The notes under the pieces: model-generated
What the model was told of the DNA's origin: nothing
Databases searched by the model: none
The model's input: only the letters and a program-made list of their open reading frames with translations
In this document: piece after piece, positions 1 to 5,582 of the stretch
Position numbering within the stretch: position 1 is the stretch's first letter
Layout: each line of letters opens with the position of its first letter
Position numbers and translations under genes: made by a program
DNA from: Leptothermofonsia sichuanensis E412
GTDB taxonomy: Bacteria; Cyanobacteriota; Cyanobacteriia; Leptolyngbyales; Leptolyngbyaceae
DNA: 64,000 nt
Direction of reading: 5' to 3'
Assembly (NCBI RefSeq): GCF_019891175.1
Contig: NZ_CP072600.1
Coordinates: forward strand, 372,001-436,000

Positions 1-1
1 G

Positions 2-145
2 GAAAAGATAGTGGTTTTCAATAAAGGTTTGTACGAAAAAACTAGGGAAGCTGTAGGCAAAAGAGGCTTCAGTTTTCTAATGAACCAATTACTTTTGGAA
101 TGGCATGAGAAAAGGGAGGTAGAAGCGGTATCGACAAAAAAATAA
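2..145 (+). CDS. C-terminal end of a small ribbon-helix-helix-like protein (partial)
   Basis: An open frame enters from the left edge and ends at a TAA at 143-145, leaving 47 residues. The visible part has a short strand-like segment (KIVVFN) followed by basic and hydrophobic helices, as in CopG/Arc-type DNA-binding proteins that often control plasmid copy number. The start and most of the family-defining region lie outside the window, so the assignment is tentative. It sits just upstream of direct repeats and a replication protein gene, which fits a replicon-control role. A palindrome follows at 172-185. Confidence 0.45.
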   Translation, partial: EKIVVFNKGLYEKTREAVGKRGFSFLMNQLLLEWHEKREVEAVSTKK

Positions 146-171
146 ACCCTGATGTTAGCAGCATCAAGGTT

Positions 172-185
172 CTAAAATGATTTTA
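172..185. terminator. Palindrome CTAAAATGATTTTA after the first gene
   Basis: An AT-rich perfect dyad (TAAAAT-G-ATTTTA) is followed by a T-run, 27 bp after the stop of the partial first gene. A weaker hairpin with TGATG/CATCA arms lies just before it. Nearly the same sequence recurs after each of the next two genes (3226-3240, 3946-3959) and inside the replication gene (1195-1211), so it is either a shared terminator or a protein-binding site of this element. Confidence 0.5.
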
Positions 186-199
186 ATTTTTCAGTTGAG

Positions 200-425
200 T
201 GATTTCAAACCAATTCCATCTTCTAACCTAATTTCATCTCTGACTCACCTTCTGACTCAACCTAGTTTCAACACGGTTTCAAACTAAATTCTAAACTCAA
301 TTCAAAACGGTTTCAACTTAGTTTCATCTTCTGATTTATCTCTGATTCATCCTAGTTTCAACACGGTTTCAAACTGGATTCTAAACTCAATTCAAAACGG
401 TTTCAACTTAGTTTTCATCATCGAT
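200..425. repeat. Direct repeats resembling iterons upstream of the replication gene
   Basis: Two imperfect copies of a segment starting CCTAGTTTCAACACGG begin at about 263 and 351, a spacing of 88-90 bp. Within them the core CGGTTTCAA occurs four times (near 276, 308, 364 and 398). The AT-rich tract sits directly upstream of a primase-helicase gene, which is where iteron-type origins lie in plasmids. No DnaA box was identified, so origin function is an inference. Confidence 0.5.
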
Positions 426-489
426 TCCTAAATTTGTGATAGGTTCACTAGCCTTTTCAGGCACTTAGAAAAATTAGGAGGAAAGAGAA

Positions 490-3204
490 ATGTTTGAGGA
501 AAATGGAAGAAACAACGGGGAAGATGTTCCTAACCAACCTAATTCTTATTATAACACAAAAATGAGTGGTGAAGAAATTGTTAACAGTTTTGGGATTGAA
601 TTTAACCCAGAAATGAATTCGCAGTTAGCAGCAACTAAGCACCCGGTTAATCCTGATATGAGTGCTGAGGTTAGGCAAGAAATTAACCGTAAGGCTAAAC
701 AGGAAAGTGCAAAGAAAAACCGTCCAAACAATTGGAAACCGGGTTCTTACAGTCAGGCTGAAGCCCCCCAAGCATTAATAAAATTCAGGGAAAAAGGTAT
801 AGGTGTTCGTTATCCCGATACCGATACCGATAGTTCAGACCTATGGTTTATCATCTTGGATTTTGACTCAGAAGACGCTACACCCTTCTCTGAGATTGTC
901 CAGGATAAATTCATTCAGAATCACGCGCTATTCGCTGAGAAGTCTTACAGCAACGATGGCTTAGTCGATTACAAATATCACATCTTTTTTGCCGCTAACC
1001 GTTTATTCAGCTACAGCGAGTTAGAAGGCAAAATCAAACTTTGGGCAAAGTCAAAATTCCCTGGTTTAGGCAAGCAAAACGAATCTTTCAAGTTTAAGCA
1101 GGTTTGGTTTGCTCCTAAATCCTCTGACGATGTTTTTGTGTTTTCTCCTGAGAACAGATTGAACATCGATGAGTTAGAAGTTCCAGAAGTTCAGCCTAAA
1201 ATCATTTTAGGCACTTCTAAGGTTAGCACTAGCAAGTTTATTGATGTCTCTACCCTTACGGGCACTGAAGCCTTCTTAGAGTATGTTCATCAGACCCTAA
1301 AACAACGATCAGCCAATGGTGAGTTAGATGTACCATCCATCCTCAGTAAGTTAGGTATCGAGGTTACTAAGGCAAAAGAATACGATGGGGTTCAAGAATT
1401 CGATTGTGATAATCCCTGGAGTGAATCAAATAATTCGGGAACTAGTCTCTTTGTTAAGTACGATGGCGATCGCTTGTTTCATGGCGTGGATCGTACTGCT
1501 GCTCACCTAAATCGTAATTCTCGCAATCACTACACCTTTCTTGATCTGTTTCACCAATCCCGCCTAGTAATTTCTGAGTCATACCGGGAAAAGTTTGGAG
1601 AAGCCAGAAGCACTAATGGACAATTCAAAGCAGAATTCTTTCTGTCAATCTGCAATCAACTCACTAGCTTTTTTGACATTGAACCTTACAGGTTTAAGAG
1701 CCAACTAAACCATGTAATCGATACCGTTTTAGAATCGTTCAAAGATCAAGTAGTGATTGTTCAGAACAGTTGGAGTAAATCAGTCTGTGATTTGTTTGTT
1801 TTCAGTGATGAGTTACGTTGCTGGGAACAAAAGGATAGCGTAACTTTTGGTGACTTTAATCTTCCTGCGAGAGCCTACAAACTTTTCCCTAATCTCGATG
1901 ATCTGCTTGCATTAGATAACCAGATCAAGCACGAACAGGAAGGGGAACGCAAGACTCAGAGAAACACTGATCTTAAGAAAGTGTGGAGAAACTTAGTTAA
2001 AGATTACCGTTTTGTCAATTCTTTCAAACAGTCTAATAAGTTCATTGAGGATATTAACTTAGTAGCTTTTGACGATAGCCTTTTAGATTTGACTACAAAG
2101 GAAATCATTCCTAATGAGGGTCAGGCTAGAAACTTGAATTCGCCTTACAAAGGTTTGAAAAGCCTTTTTGAGGGAGGTTTGGAAAAGTTGGAAGCAGATC
2201 CCGACATCCAAAAATTTAAGACCACTTTTCACAAATGGTCTAAATGCGATGTTAAAGGTGAAATGCTACTTCTCTGGTTCATCGTCAACACGATGAGACA
2301 AGGATATAAGACTAGACGTTTCCTTTGTCTCACCGCTCCATCAAAATCAGGAAAGACTAGCTATTTCAAAACTTTTATTCACACTATGAATCAGGGAAAA
2401 GTTGACAATAACAATTCGGGTGACTTTGCATCTTTCATCTCTGCATCAAGTTTGTTTTCTAATTATGAACACCAATCTGAAAAACTCGAAAAAGCTAAAT
2501 TCTTCTTTGTTGATGAGGTAGACATCGATTATAAAGATTTTGGGCAAGGGTTAAGAAAGTATGTCCAGGATGACGGTGTAAGCGAGCTGGCTAATCCCAA
2601 AGGTAAAAAAACTTACGTTGCCCTATACAGATTTGGTATCGGTGTAGTTTTTGAAGAAAAAATGACGATTGCTACAACATCGGGTTTAGATGGTAGAGCT
2701 ATCTATGTCGATCTTCGCAGTGTAGATAAAAGTGATTCTGAATTTAGCAACCGCTTAATGAATGACCGTGATTTGCAAGATAAAATCTTGGTCTGGTGTT
2801 TACTTCAGGATAAGAAGTTGATTCTAGAAAGGATCAAGGAATTAGCTTTACATCCTGTGTTTGTTGATTCAATGAGAGAGAAGAAAGCAGATAACGATCT
2901 TCTCTATCAGTTCATTGTTGATCGAATTGAGATCACAGGAAATAAGGATGATCGGTTGAGTAAAGATGAACTGTTCGCATCCTTTCAATATTGGGTAAAG
3001 AATCAGATTACAGAATACGTCATAAAAACATCTAATCGTTTTATGAAAGAGTTCCTTCCTTTGATTAGAGATGATGAAAACGACATCCGTTATTTCGATC
3101 ATCTATTACCTACTGATTGGCTACCCAAACATACAAATAAGGGTAACTTCTATTGTGGTCTGAAACTAAAAGATACTCTCAATCAGGATGAGAAAGAATT
3201 CTGA
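490..3204 (+). CDS. Plasmid/satellite-type primase-helicase replication protein
   Basis: A 904-residue protein with a good ribosome site (AGGAGG about 6 bp upstream). The N-terminal third has an acidic D-x-D motif (ILDFDSED, about residues 123-130) and a later Y-K-Y-H segment near 162, resembling the catalytic D-x-D and s-x-H motifs of archaeo-eukaryotic-type primases. The C-terminal half has a Walker A (SKSGKTS, about 618-624) and a Walker B (FFFVDEVD, about 672-679), typical of superfamily 3/D5-like helicases of plasmids, phages and satellites. Such fusions prime and unwind DNA at their own origin, and the repeats just upstream would suit that. Base composition is clearly more AT-rich than the chromosome to the right of 4250. 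An internal 17-bp palindrome lies at 1195-1211. The domain calls are by eye; the replication role is likely. Confidence 0.7.
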   Translation: MFEENGRNNGEDVPNQPNSYYNTKMSGEEIVNSFGIEFNPEMNSQLAATKHPVNPDMSAEVRQEINRKAKQESAKKNRPNNWKPGSYSQAEAPQALIKFREKGIGVRYPDTDTDSSDLWFIILDFDSEDATPFSEIVQDKFIQNHALFAEKSYSNDGLVDYKYHIFFAANRLFSYSELEGKIKLWAKSKFPGLGKQNESFKFKQVWFAPKSSDDVFVFSPENRLNIDELEVPEVQPKIILGTSKVSTSKFIDVSTLTGTEAFLEYVHQTLKQRSANGELDVPSILSKLGIEVTKAKEYDGVQEFDCDNPWSESNNSGTSLFVKYDGDRLFHGVDRTAAHLNRNSRNHYTFLDLFHQSRLVISESYREKFGEARSTNGQFKAEFFLSICNQLTSFFDIEPYRFKSQLNHVIDTVLESFKDQVVIVQNSWSKSVCDLFVFSDELRCWEQKDSVTFGDFNLPARAYKLFPNLDDLLALDNQIKHEQEGERKTQRNTDLKKVWRNLVKDYRFVNSFKQSNKFIEDINLVAFDDSLLDLTTKEIIPNEGQARNLNSPYKGLKSLFEGGLEKLEADPDIQKFKTTFHKWSKCDVKGEMLLLWFIVNTMRQGYKTRRFLCLTAPSKSGKTSYFKTFIHTMNQGKVDNNNSGDFASFISASSLFSNYEHQSEKLEKAKFFFVDEVDIDYKDFGQGLRKYVQDDGVSELANPKGKKTYVALYRFGIGVVFEEKMTIATTSGLDGRAIYVDLRSVDKSDSEFSNRLMNDRDLQDKILVWCLLQDKKLILERIKELALHPVFVDSMREKKADNDLLYQFIVDRIEITGNKDDRLSKDELFASFQYWVKNQITEYVIKTSNRFMKEFLPLIRDDENDIRYFDHLLPTDWLPKHTNKGNFYCGLKLKDTLNQDEKEF
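1195..1211. repeat. 17-bp perfect palindrome inside the replication gene
   Basis: CCTAAAATCATTTTAGG is the same core that follows the three genes of this segment, here within coding sequence. Being intragenic, it cannot simply be an end-of-gene terminator, so a recognition-site role is possible. Confidence 0.5.
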
Positions 3205-3263
3205 TTAGTGCTCTGTGTCAGGTATCTAAAATCATTTTAGCTACCCCCAGGGGCACTAATCAC
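3202..3263. terminator. Two-tier palindrome after the replication gene
   Basis: Outer arms TGATTAGTGC (3202-3211) and GCACTAATCA (3254-3263) enclose the palindrome CTAAAATCATTTTAG (3226-3240). The left arm starts at the stop codon of the replication gene. The same design, with different outer arms, follows the next gene. Confidence 0.55.
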
Positions 3264-3358
3264 CATCAAAAACTCAACCAAATTAGGAGCAAAACAGATG
3301 GAATTCAGGCAATAAAAATGGTGCTTTTAGCAGCACCATCATGAATTTCTCTTTTTTC

Positions 3359-3395
3359 GGAACTATATATCATTATACCATAAAAATATAGTTCC
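3359..3395. repeat. Inverted repeat GGAACTATAT / ATATAGTTCC
   Basis: Ten-base arms at 3359-3368 and 3386-3395 flank an AT-rich spacer just ahead of the next gene. It could be an operator or a leader hairpin for that gene. Confidence 0.5.
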
Positions 3396-3434
3396 AAAAT
3401 GTTGATAATCCCAACAATTTCTAAGGTAAAAACT

Positions 3435-3917
3435 ATGGCAACTGCAATTACCGCTAAAAAATCTGAGAAAGTTATTCCTATCTTTTCTAAGAAAGCTTTT
3501 GAGGAACACTTTGAAGAATTATATTTATATTGCCAGTGTTCGACTGCTTTTGATGAAATGGAGGATAGACATCCTGTTTACATGAGAGTAGAGGACATTA
3601 AGCGCGATACAATCATTCTTTCTCTACAATTGAGATTTCCAGATATTGATTTACCAGACTATGCTGACAGATTGTTTATAACCATCTATTTTCCGGGTTA
3701 TGCAAAACCTGAGATATACTTTTCCATGCCAGATATGAAGCATCTTATCAAGGCAGAAAGCATAAATCGTAAATGGCAATTTCCAGCGTTAGGTTTACCT
3801 AAGAAATGGACGTTGGTTTTATTTGAGAGAATGTACGATTATGCTTACCTGAGAGTATTTTTAGTTCATGAAATAGAGAATAATTACCGTGATTCTAGGA
3901 AATGGTTAGGGTATTAG
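3435..3917 (+). CDS. Unknown protein of the replicon-like segment
   Basis: Not recognised. An upstream ATG at 3399 would give 172 residues; I prefer the ATG at 3435 (160 residues, MATAITAKKSEK...), preceded by AAGGT. The protein has no signal peptide, membrane segment or cysteine-rich motif. The middle is rich in aromatic and acidic residues and the end is basic. It shares the AT-rich composition of the replication gene and, like it, is followed by a TAAAATCATTTTA palindrome, so the two probably belong to the same mobile element. Confidence 0.6.
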   Translation: MATAITAKKSEKVIPIFSKKAFEEHFEELYLYCQCSTAFDEMEDRHPVYMRVEDIKRDTIILSLQLRFPDIDLPDYADRLFITIYFPGYAKPEIYFSMPDMKHLIKAESINRKWQFPALGLPKKWTLVLFERMYDYAYLRVFLVHEIENNYRDSRKWLGY

Positions 3918-3926
3918 TGTTGTCTG

Positions 3927-3966
3927 AACCCACAAGGTAGATAACTAAAATCATTTTATGGGTTCC
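3927..3966. terminator. Two-tier palindrome after the unknown gene
   Basis: Outer arms GAACCCA (3927-3933) and TGGGTTC (3960-3966) enclose CTAAAATCATTTTA (3946-3959), 10 bp after the stop codon. This is the third occurrence of the same 3' design in this segment. Confidence 0.55.
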
Positions 3967-4042
3967 CCTCCTACCAAAACTGATCGAAAAATGATAGAAA
4001 TTTGAGAGGTAGAACCTTGAAAAACTTATAGGGCAGAATATC

Positions 4043-4090
4043 AGATCCGCATTTTGAGTGCGGTGCGTCTACCAATTCCGCCATCCGCCC
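4043..4090 (-). tRNA. Truncated tRNA-Leu(CAA), 5' part only
   Basis: Reading the minus strand from 4090 there is a 5' acceptor half (GGGCGGA), TG, a D-arm with the GCG/CGC stem and GGTAGA loop, and a perfect anticodon stem (CCGCA/TGCGG) with loop CTCAAAA, giving anticodon CAA at 4056-4054. The class II variable arm, a T-arm with TTCRA loop, and a 3' acceptor half complementary to GGGCGGA are not found in the next 80 bases. The gene is therefore probably broken at its 3' side, exactly where the AT-rich element begins. A split or intron-containing gene is a less likely alternative. Confidence 0.6.
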
Positions 4091-4253
4091 GGAACAGGTC
4101 AAACAACCATCAACGGGTTATTTGGGCTTACTCAGTGTAACAGCAGAGAAGCGATCGCGACAAGCGTTATGTTAGAAAAATGGTAAAAAGCCTGGGGGAT
4201 TGATCGAAAACAGCTTTCTAAGTCTATCTCTCTAACTAGTTGTGATTTGAACT

Positions 4254-5582
4254 ATGGCTTTGCTTCCGCCCGGAAACTTTGGTCTGCCCTTCGTTGGTGA
4301 GACGTTACAACTCCTGTTTGATCCAGACTTTGCGACCAGGCGGTTTCAGAAGTATGGTCCAATTTTCAAAACTCGCATCCTGGGCAGACCGTCTGTGTTT
4401 ATGGCGGGACCAGAAGCCGCAGAATTTATTCTCTCCAGTCATATTGACTGCTTCACCTGGCGAGATGGTTGGCCCCAAAGTTTCAAGATTTTGCTGGGAC
4501 AATCTCTGTTTGTCCAGGAAGGAGAGGAACATCGTCGCAATCGGAAGTTAATGATGCCAGCCTTTCATGGTGCGGCTCTGGCACGGTACCTGGGCACAAT
4601 CGCAACCCTCACTCAGACCTACCTGCAACAGTGGGAAGCCCGACAGGAATTGATCTGGTACGACGAGTTCAAGCAACTGACCTTTGACATTGCCAGTTGC
4701 ATTTTTTTGGGTAGCCGCCCCGGTGAAGACACCACTCGCCTGAGCCAGTTATTTACCACCCTCACTAATGGGTTGTTTGGTATTGGACTAAGAAAGGCGA
4801 TCGCGGCCCGCAATGAAATCCTTGACTACCTGACCCAGGTAATTCAAACCCGACAGCAAAACCCAACGGATGACGCACTCAGCCTTTTGATTCAGGCAGG
4901 GGACGACCATGGGGATTCGCTTTCCCTGGAAGAAATTCGCGCTCAGGCGATGCTTCTCCTGTTCGCTGGCCACGAAACCACCACCGCCATGCTGACCTGG
5001 ATCTGCCTGGAGCTTGCCCGCCATCCTGACATTCTTCAACGTGCCCGCACCGAACAAAGTCAGCTCTTAGCATTATCTTCCCCTGCCTCCCTCTCCTCCC
5101 CACCCCTCACTCTGGAGCAGCTCGGCACCATGCCCTATCTAGAGCAGATTTTGAATGAAGTTGAACGCCTCCATCCGCCTGTAGCGGGGGGCTTTCGGGG
5201 AGTGGTCAAACCCTTTGAGTTTAAGGGCTACCAGGTCCCTGCCGGGTGGCTGGCACAGTACTCAATTTTGCAGACCCAGCGATCGCCGGAGGTTTACACA
5301 AATCCAGAGCAGTTTGACCCCGATCGCTTCAGCCCAGAGCGGCAGGAGGCAAAACAGAAAGCCTTTAGCTTGATTGGCTTTGGCGGTGGTCCCCGCATTT
5401 GTCTGGGAATCGCCTTTGCCAAATTGGAGATGAAAATTGTGATGGCGTACCTGTTGCGGGGTTATGAATGGGAACTGCTTCCCAACCAAAATTTGGAGCC
5501 AAAAATCATTCCAACCAGACGACCGAAGGATGGGCTAAAAGTGAAATTCAGGAGAAAAGAGGAGAAATCTTCATGGTTTTGA
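4254..5582 (+). CDS. Cytochrome P450, CYP120-like
   Basis: A 442-residue soluble P450 of normal bacterial length. Visible hallmarks are the proline-rich start (LLPPGNFGLPFVGET), the I-helix oxygen-activation motif AGHETT (239-244), the K-helix E-x-x-R (E302-R305) and the heme-thiolate loop FGGGPRICLG with the cysteine ligand at 383. The N-terminal region resembles cyanobacterial CYP120 enzymes, of which the Synechocystis member hydroxylates retinoids; the substrate here is unknown. It lies alone between the tRNA remnant and a convergent Ppx gene, so no operon partner such as a ferredoxin is nearby. The family call is firm, the subfamily likely. Confidence 0.9.
   Translation: MALLPPGNFGLPFVGETLQLLFDPDFATRRFQKYGPIFKTRILGRPSVFMAGPEAAEFILSSHIDCFTWRDGWPQSFKILLGQSLFVQEGEEHRRNRKLMMPAFHGAALARYLGTIATLTQTYLQQWEARQELIWYDEFKQLTFDIASCIFLGSRPGEDTTRLSQLFTTLTNGLFGIGLRKAIAARNEILDYLTQVIQTRQQNPTDDALSLLIQAGDDHGDSLSLEEIRAQAMLLLFAGHETTTAMLTWICLELARHPDILQRARTEQSQLLALSSPASLSSPPLTLEQLGTMPYLEQILNEVERLHPPVAGGFRGVVKPFEFKGYQVPAGWLAQYSILQTQRSPEVYTNPEQFDPDRFSPERQEAKQKAFSLIGFGGGPRICLGIAFAKLEMKIVMAYLLRGYEWELLPNQNLEPKIIPTRRPKDGLKVKFRRKEEKSSWF

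Follow-up and report, generated by a model that had tools for sequence, protein, structure and literature searches.

An integrative element that very probably replaces the 5' half of the single tRNA-Leu(CAA) gene in Leptothermofonsia sichuanensis E412

In canonical integration at a tRNA gene, the 3' half of the tRNA is borne by the element and the host promoter stays, and most tRNA-integrating elements leave that promoter in place. In the Islander collection, 3,760 of 3,919 islands carry a 3' tDNA fragment, and 159 carry a 5' fragment (PMC4383910). The attB of archaeal pTN3 is the 5' half of a tRNA-Leu with a CAA anticodon, and the restored tRNA loses its original promoter (Cossu 2017, PMC5495485; PMC8371274). 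According to a review, 5'-half cases are seldom met in bacteria (PMC8371274, citing Williams 2002). The phages of tRNA-dependent lysogeny, such as phage Gaia at tRNA-Leu-CAA, disrupt the tRNA at their insertion site and supply a complete, separate tRNA gene (PMC10865867). Integration that leaves a 5' fragment is thus already known as a minority outcome from Islander and pTN3, and in the group described here it is a minority outcome but a regular one.

The window analyzed here is the 64-kb stretch G000:C1:372001-436000 (G000 being the E412 genome), and its left edge falls in the middle of an element. Other positions refer to the fetched neighborhood locus L003, from which a window position is obtained by subtracting 10000. 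A sequence-only reading of the window had described the end of an integrated plasmid-like element at a tRNA-Leu(CAA) that keeps its 5' part only, and this description holds, as the acceptor-5', D, and anticodon arms are present at window 4047-4090 (minus strand) and nothing of the tRNA follows. ARAGORN called no tRNA gene in the 64-kb window, and the intact tRNA-Leu that the same reading had named as a sign against its view is accordingly absent there. The right end has the following features:

Window 4047-4090, minus strand: displaced 5' part of tRNA-Leu(CAA), with its intact partner at L003:4731-4812(-)
Window 4047-4063, minus strand: putative crossover core, the tRNA anticodon arm CCGCATTTTGAGTGCGG (stem, 7-nt loop, stem); identity with the left copy starts at 4047
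Window 4091-4210, minus strand: tRNA upstream region, a duplicate of L003:4813-4932 within a 164-bp repeat with one mismatch
Window 4158-4163 and 4134-4139, minus strand: predicted promoter, -35 TTGTCG and -10 TACACT, respectively
Window 3980-4001, plus strand: putative integrase arm site of the right end, CTGATCGAAAAATGATAGAAAT, with the left-end counterpart TTGATCGAAAATTGATCGAAAT in the same orientation
Window 4015-4030: CCTTGAAAAACTTATA, the inverse complement (two mismatches) of CATAAGCTTTTCAAGG, which adjoins the integrase start

Tandem direct repeats of about 11 bp occur at both ends of related elements too, and the boundary at window 4047 is the same in loci L042, L043, and L044.

The sequence-only reading had taken the 3' half of the tRNA as missing and had proposed a search to the left of the window for it and for an integrase; both are found there. 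An intact tRNA-Leu(CAA) gene lies at G000:C1:366731-366812(-), i.e., L003:4731-4812(-), 9.28 kb to the left of the fragment and in the same orientation, and it matches the Rfam tRNA family with 56 bits as the sole Rfam match in L003. A genome search with window 3900-4300 returned one other match, G000:C1:366769-366932 (99% over 164 bp), which defines a direct repeat of 164 bp with 99.4% identity that consists of the tRNA 5' part from the anticodon stem and 120 bp upstream. No second tRNA-Leu(CAA) gene was found by similarity across the genome. The element between the repeats (L003:4769-14046) measures 9.28 kb and has a GC content of 38.8%, compared with 49.6% and 51.2% in the outer flanks and about 50% in the chromosome, which bears out the AT-rich block described earlier. 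Joining the outer flanks by script yields exactly one intact tRNA-Leu, and the right end alone yields none. No tRNA sequence is missing at the locus. A repeat of this length and identity, and the recurrence of the layout in other genera, go beyond what chance would give.

The intact tyrosine integrase gene (L003:5055-6185, plus strand, 376 aa) starts on the 5' side of the intact tRNA, at a distance of 243 nt, and reads away from it. Its product matches PF00589 (E=4e-17) and a PHROG integrase (E=8e-44) and has the catalytic residues R217, K261, R329, H351, and Y361. In the related integrase at L024:4989-6116 (G013), Lys replaces the second catalytic Arg (NTKHT versus QTRHT), which may affect activity. 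In Islander terms, the locus has a tyrosine integrase within the island, an intact tRNA at one end, and a fragment in the same orientation at the opposite end. This fragment comprises the 5' part of the tRNA and is located upstream of the intact gene, as is also the case in G013, G006, G015, and G090. The locus falls outside the canonical 3'-fragment subclass because the integrase is at the 5' side of the tRNA, and the copy of the tRNA 3' half that is present is inverted and located outside the intact tRNA.

Window 1-4046 is very probably the right part of a 5'-restoring integrative element that was inserted in the single tRNA-Leu(CAA) gene by a tyrosine integrase. The attP of such an element would comprise the tRNA 5' half with its promoter, and the integrase would recombine it with the anticodon arm of the host gene, with the exact crossover probably in the anticodon loop. 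The host 3' half and the 5' half and promoter of the element would form an intact left-end tRNA from which the integrase reads away, and the 5' half and promoter left behind would be the right-end fragment (window 4047-4210). Excision at the same core would return one intact tRNA and a circle, and the element may still be mobile in this way. The right-end fragment would be the 5' half because this type of integrase replaces the 5' half and promoter and not the 3' half; the "broken" tRNA would thus be a displaced front half, with the working gene at the other end of the element. A tRNA fragment consisting of the 5' half only need not signal damage.

One feature stands outside this explanation and counts against it as unaccounted for. 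An inverted copy of the tRNA-Leu 3' half lies beside the integrase start (L003:4967-5008), and such a copy is also present in G001, G013, and G006 and is degenerate in G015, so that three or four genera have kept it. In G000, G001, and G013, its start coincides exactly with the anticodon stem, and its variable arm differs from the one in the 3' half of the host tRNA. Such a copy could be what is left of an ancestral 3'-restoring attP. In addition, a search for an empty syntenic site using the flanking P450 gene and the 297-aa gene on the left found no conserved neighborhood in relatives, and neither flank is syntenic in G001, the sole genome of the same genus. Several relatives share the order murA, M48 peptidase gene, and tRNA-Leu, which is absent in E412, where the M48 gene is at 2.16 Mb.

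From the left, the element carries the integrase gene and then, on the minus strand, two small ORFs and a gene for a 309-aa protein. Next come an array of repeats and an inverted repeat of 39 nt, followed by two RHH-like genes and six GTTTCAA units; the primase-helicase gene (904 aa) and a 172-aa ORF complete the series. The part within the window agrees with the sequence-only reading, which had listed an RHH-like gene end, iteron-like repeats, a primase-helicase gene, and an unknown gene:

Window 1-145, plus strand: 3' end of an RHH-like gene (60 aa; full extent L003:9963-10145), assigned to RHH on sequence appearance alone
Window 251-414: iteron-like repeats 5' of the primase gene, consisting of two copies of 74 nt spaced 90 bp apart, with the six GTTTCAA units
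Window 490-3204, plus strand: 904-aa primase-helicase, phrog_36509 (DNA primase) E=1.6e-25 and phrog_1156 E=9e-7
Window 3399-3917, plus strand: 172-aa protein, no family at usable score in Pfam, PHROG, or NCBIfam

The RHH-like 60-aa gene has no match in Pfam or NCBIfam, and GTTTCAA units are absent from the rest of the same strand of the element. The primase-helicase has a PrimPol-like DFD motif and a Walker A motif, APSKSGKTS, both recognized by sequence look. It shares 21-24% identity with cyanophage DNA primase/VapE, and no relatives of it were found in 58 related genomes, plasmids, or IMG/VR. The integrase has no close relatives in IMG/VR, where the matches are distant only. As to a possible phage satellite, the element has the cyanophage-like primase, and no packaging or capsid gene is recognizable in it with Pfam, PHROG, or NCBIfam. 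An array of GGTAACGGTYGCTAGGG-type units occupies L003:8316-8700, and the inverted repeat (97%, 118 nt between arms) lies at L003:8717-8912; neither occurs elsewhere in the genome, and together they are a possible origin or partition region. With its iteron-like repeats and primase-helicase, the element may replicate as a plasmid when excised.

The 6.43-Mb genome contains nine copies of a 13-bp palindrome, TAAAATSATTTTA, all of them within the element. Eight lie between genes, even though coding sequence makes up 71% of the element, and no copy was found in G001 or G013. The copies from the genome-wide count are as follows:

Window 173-185: TAAAATSATTTTA
Window 1197-1209: TAAAATSATTTTA, within the primase gene
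Window 3227-3239: TAAAATSATTTTA, 3' of the primase stop codon
Window 3946-3958: TAAAATSATTTTA, 3' of the 172-aa gene
L003:6190, 6509, 6883, 7926, and 9028: the other five copies

The palindrome is likely bound by a regulator or partition protein encoded by the element. It may be an operator, a stoperator-like site, or a partition site, with the stoperators of mycobacteriophages as a possible analogy.

Three other genera, represented by G013 (18.3 kb between the copies), G006 (4.6 kb), and G015 (2.4 kb), share the layout of the E412 element at tRNA-Leu(CAA). The integrase gene or its start adjoins the intact tRNA in G013 and G015, and the G006 element has lost its integrase. A pattern search for doubled 5'-half copies found only G000 and G013 phylum-wide, and the family-wide search added G001, G006, and G015; matches to the 5' half only in G042, G045, G052, and G059 were rejected as intact, diverged tRNAs. 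In G001 (Leptolyngbyaceae HOT.MB2.61), the left end of an element is present with a broken integrase, and contig C219 contains in a single stretch the right end, core, 5' half, promoter, arm, and integrase start, which is the attP joint predicted for the circle. This joint (L026) belongs to a second element type with a family-type promoter and without the inverted 3' half, and it lies between an aminotransferase gene and psbC. In G035, an insert of about 3.6 kb (L027:5080-8900, contig C166) separates tRNA-Leu(CAA) from a CsbD-like gene when compared with congeners; it contains C-terminal integrase remnants and a large NTPase-like gene, which could be a defense gene.

Related integrases also lie at the 5' side of other tRNAs. 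At tRNA-Val(TAC), the displaced 5' half is accompanied by about 68 bp of upstream sequence (95% identity), and at tRNA-Asp, tRNA-Val(GAC), and tRNA-Gly two complete tRNA copies flank the element, with 30, 44, and 4 bp of upstream sequence common to both copies, respectively. A related integrase fragment is at the 5' side of tRNA-Pro(CGG) in G085, and four integrase relatives are located away from any tRNA. At a tRNA-Gly(GCC) in G036 (contig C30; L151 and L100), 5'-side and 3'-side integrases are both present, and an inverted-repeat sequence flanks the tRNA.

Among the integrases placed in a tree, 40 have a tRNA close upstream; 32 of these face its 3' end and 8 its 5' end. The six nearest of these eight fall in one branch of 12 (100/99), together with four integrases without a target call and two 3'-side integrases on a long branch. 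In a 31-row tree, none of 500 shuffles was as clustered for the 5' side, and keeping the first ten rows of the branch together was not rejected (p-AU 0.37). Polarity thus follows integrase lineage. The two long-branch 3'-side members within the branch count against a lineage of single polarity, two distant 5'-side integrases (at tRNA-Ser and tRNA-Pro) are placed elsewhere in the tree, and a single origin for the near 5'-side group is possible but not proven. Two 3'-side loci taken as controls, G015 tRNA-Met and G028 tRNA-Arg, showed no second tRNA fragment in the 20 kb fetched; for these, position alone assigns the 3' side. Because polarity follows lineage, 5'-side and 3'-side branches can be compared, which could reveal what in the recombinase or attP sets polarity.

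The promoter upstream of tRNA-Leu(CAA) also differs among the copies. Both E412 copies and the left copy of G001 carry TTGTCG-N18-TACACT, whose -10 lies 43-44 nt before the tRNA. In every other tRNA-Leu(CAA) copy examined within the family, whether or not an element is present, the -10 is TATAAT-like and is positioned 14-18 nt upstream. The tRNA promoter, whose activity is predicted, appears to have been swapped in this genus. Since the promoter region is common to the G000 and G001 elements and the outer flanks are not syntenic, it most likely travels with the element.

The right copy in E412 has this same promoter and half of the putative arm site and may therefore be a truncated second element, not the host 5' half. 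In that case, the 5' half and promoter to the right of window 4047 would belong to another copy of the element, as its left end, with most of that copy later deleted up to the P450 gene; we consider this a serious variant, though less likely than not. The repeat extends into GATTGATCGAAAA, half of the putative left-end arm site in G000 and G001; the genus-type promoter is found in both E412 copies, and copies examined elsewhere have the family -10; the P450 gene of G001 has no such sequence upstream; and a joint of right end to left end exists in G001:C219. However, a last move of the element within the species would account for the identity of the repeats just as well, and no further element sequence lies to the right.

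It is very unlikely that each insertion copies the 5' half and upstream region (164-185 bp) from the host, as in the target duplication of a transposon, and that the element does not carry them. The upstream copies are near-identical within G000 and within G013 and unrelated between the two, and the G013 copy ends exactly at the inverted 3'-half copy, as such duplication would have it; but the 5' half and promoter are joined inside an element in G001:C219, the two upstream copies differ in G015, and the elements of G000 and G001 have the upstream region in common but not their flanks. Tyrosine integrases are not known to make duplications of this kind. The sequence-only reading, to which only the 5' part was visible, had favored a canonical 3'-restoring integration gone wrong or a later deletion of the 3' half; this is now hardly tenable, as the tRNA is restored at the other end with the integrase at its 5' side, and further genera and additional tRNAs show the same outcome. 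A local duplication of the ordinary kind, affecting the 5' region of the tRNA and unrelated to integration, could produce a direct repeat by itself but is just as improbable, given that the repeat sits exactly at the edge of the AT-rich block with the integrase at the opposite edge and that the same anticodon-stem boundary recurs with related integrases.

Beyond the 5'-restoring element itself, we give an even chance to a broader proposal, that a cyanobacterial integrase lineage switched polarity as a group and that insertion of its elements replaces the promoter of a host tRNA together with the front half or the entire tRNA. Transcription of the host tRNA would then be under an element-borne promoter, including that of the only tRNA-Leu(CAA) in this genus, and loss of the element other than by exact excision would be tied to loss of this tRNA gene. 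As the promoter is apparently element-borne, the control of a host tRNA by an element would be testable in ordinary cyanobacteria.

The element resembles the 5'-fragment islands of Islander in its tyrosine integrase, the intact tRNA at one end, the same-orientation 5' fragment, and the boundary centered on the anticodon. It is unlike them in that a related cyanobacterial integrase branch keeps its polarity across several tRNA isotypes, that in several members the repeat includes 30-180 bp of sequence preceding the tRNA, and that the whole tRNA is duplicated in some. As in pTN3, the 5' half of a tRNA-Leu(CAA) is targeted and the restored tRNA is set apart from its original promoter; however, integration of pTN3 splits its integrase gene, and the integrase promoter drives the restored tRNA, whereas here the 376-aa integrase remains intact and divergent, separated from the tRNA by a tRNA-directed upstream region. 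Like the phages of tRNA-dependent lysogeny, a mobile element takes over the host tRNA supply, but here the tRNA is rebuilt at the junction. The recombinase superfamily, target, and restoration logic are those of canonical 3'-restoring tRNA islands and prophages, with the opposite polarity: the replaced part is the 5' half together with the promoter, and it is the tRNA 5' end that the integrase faces.
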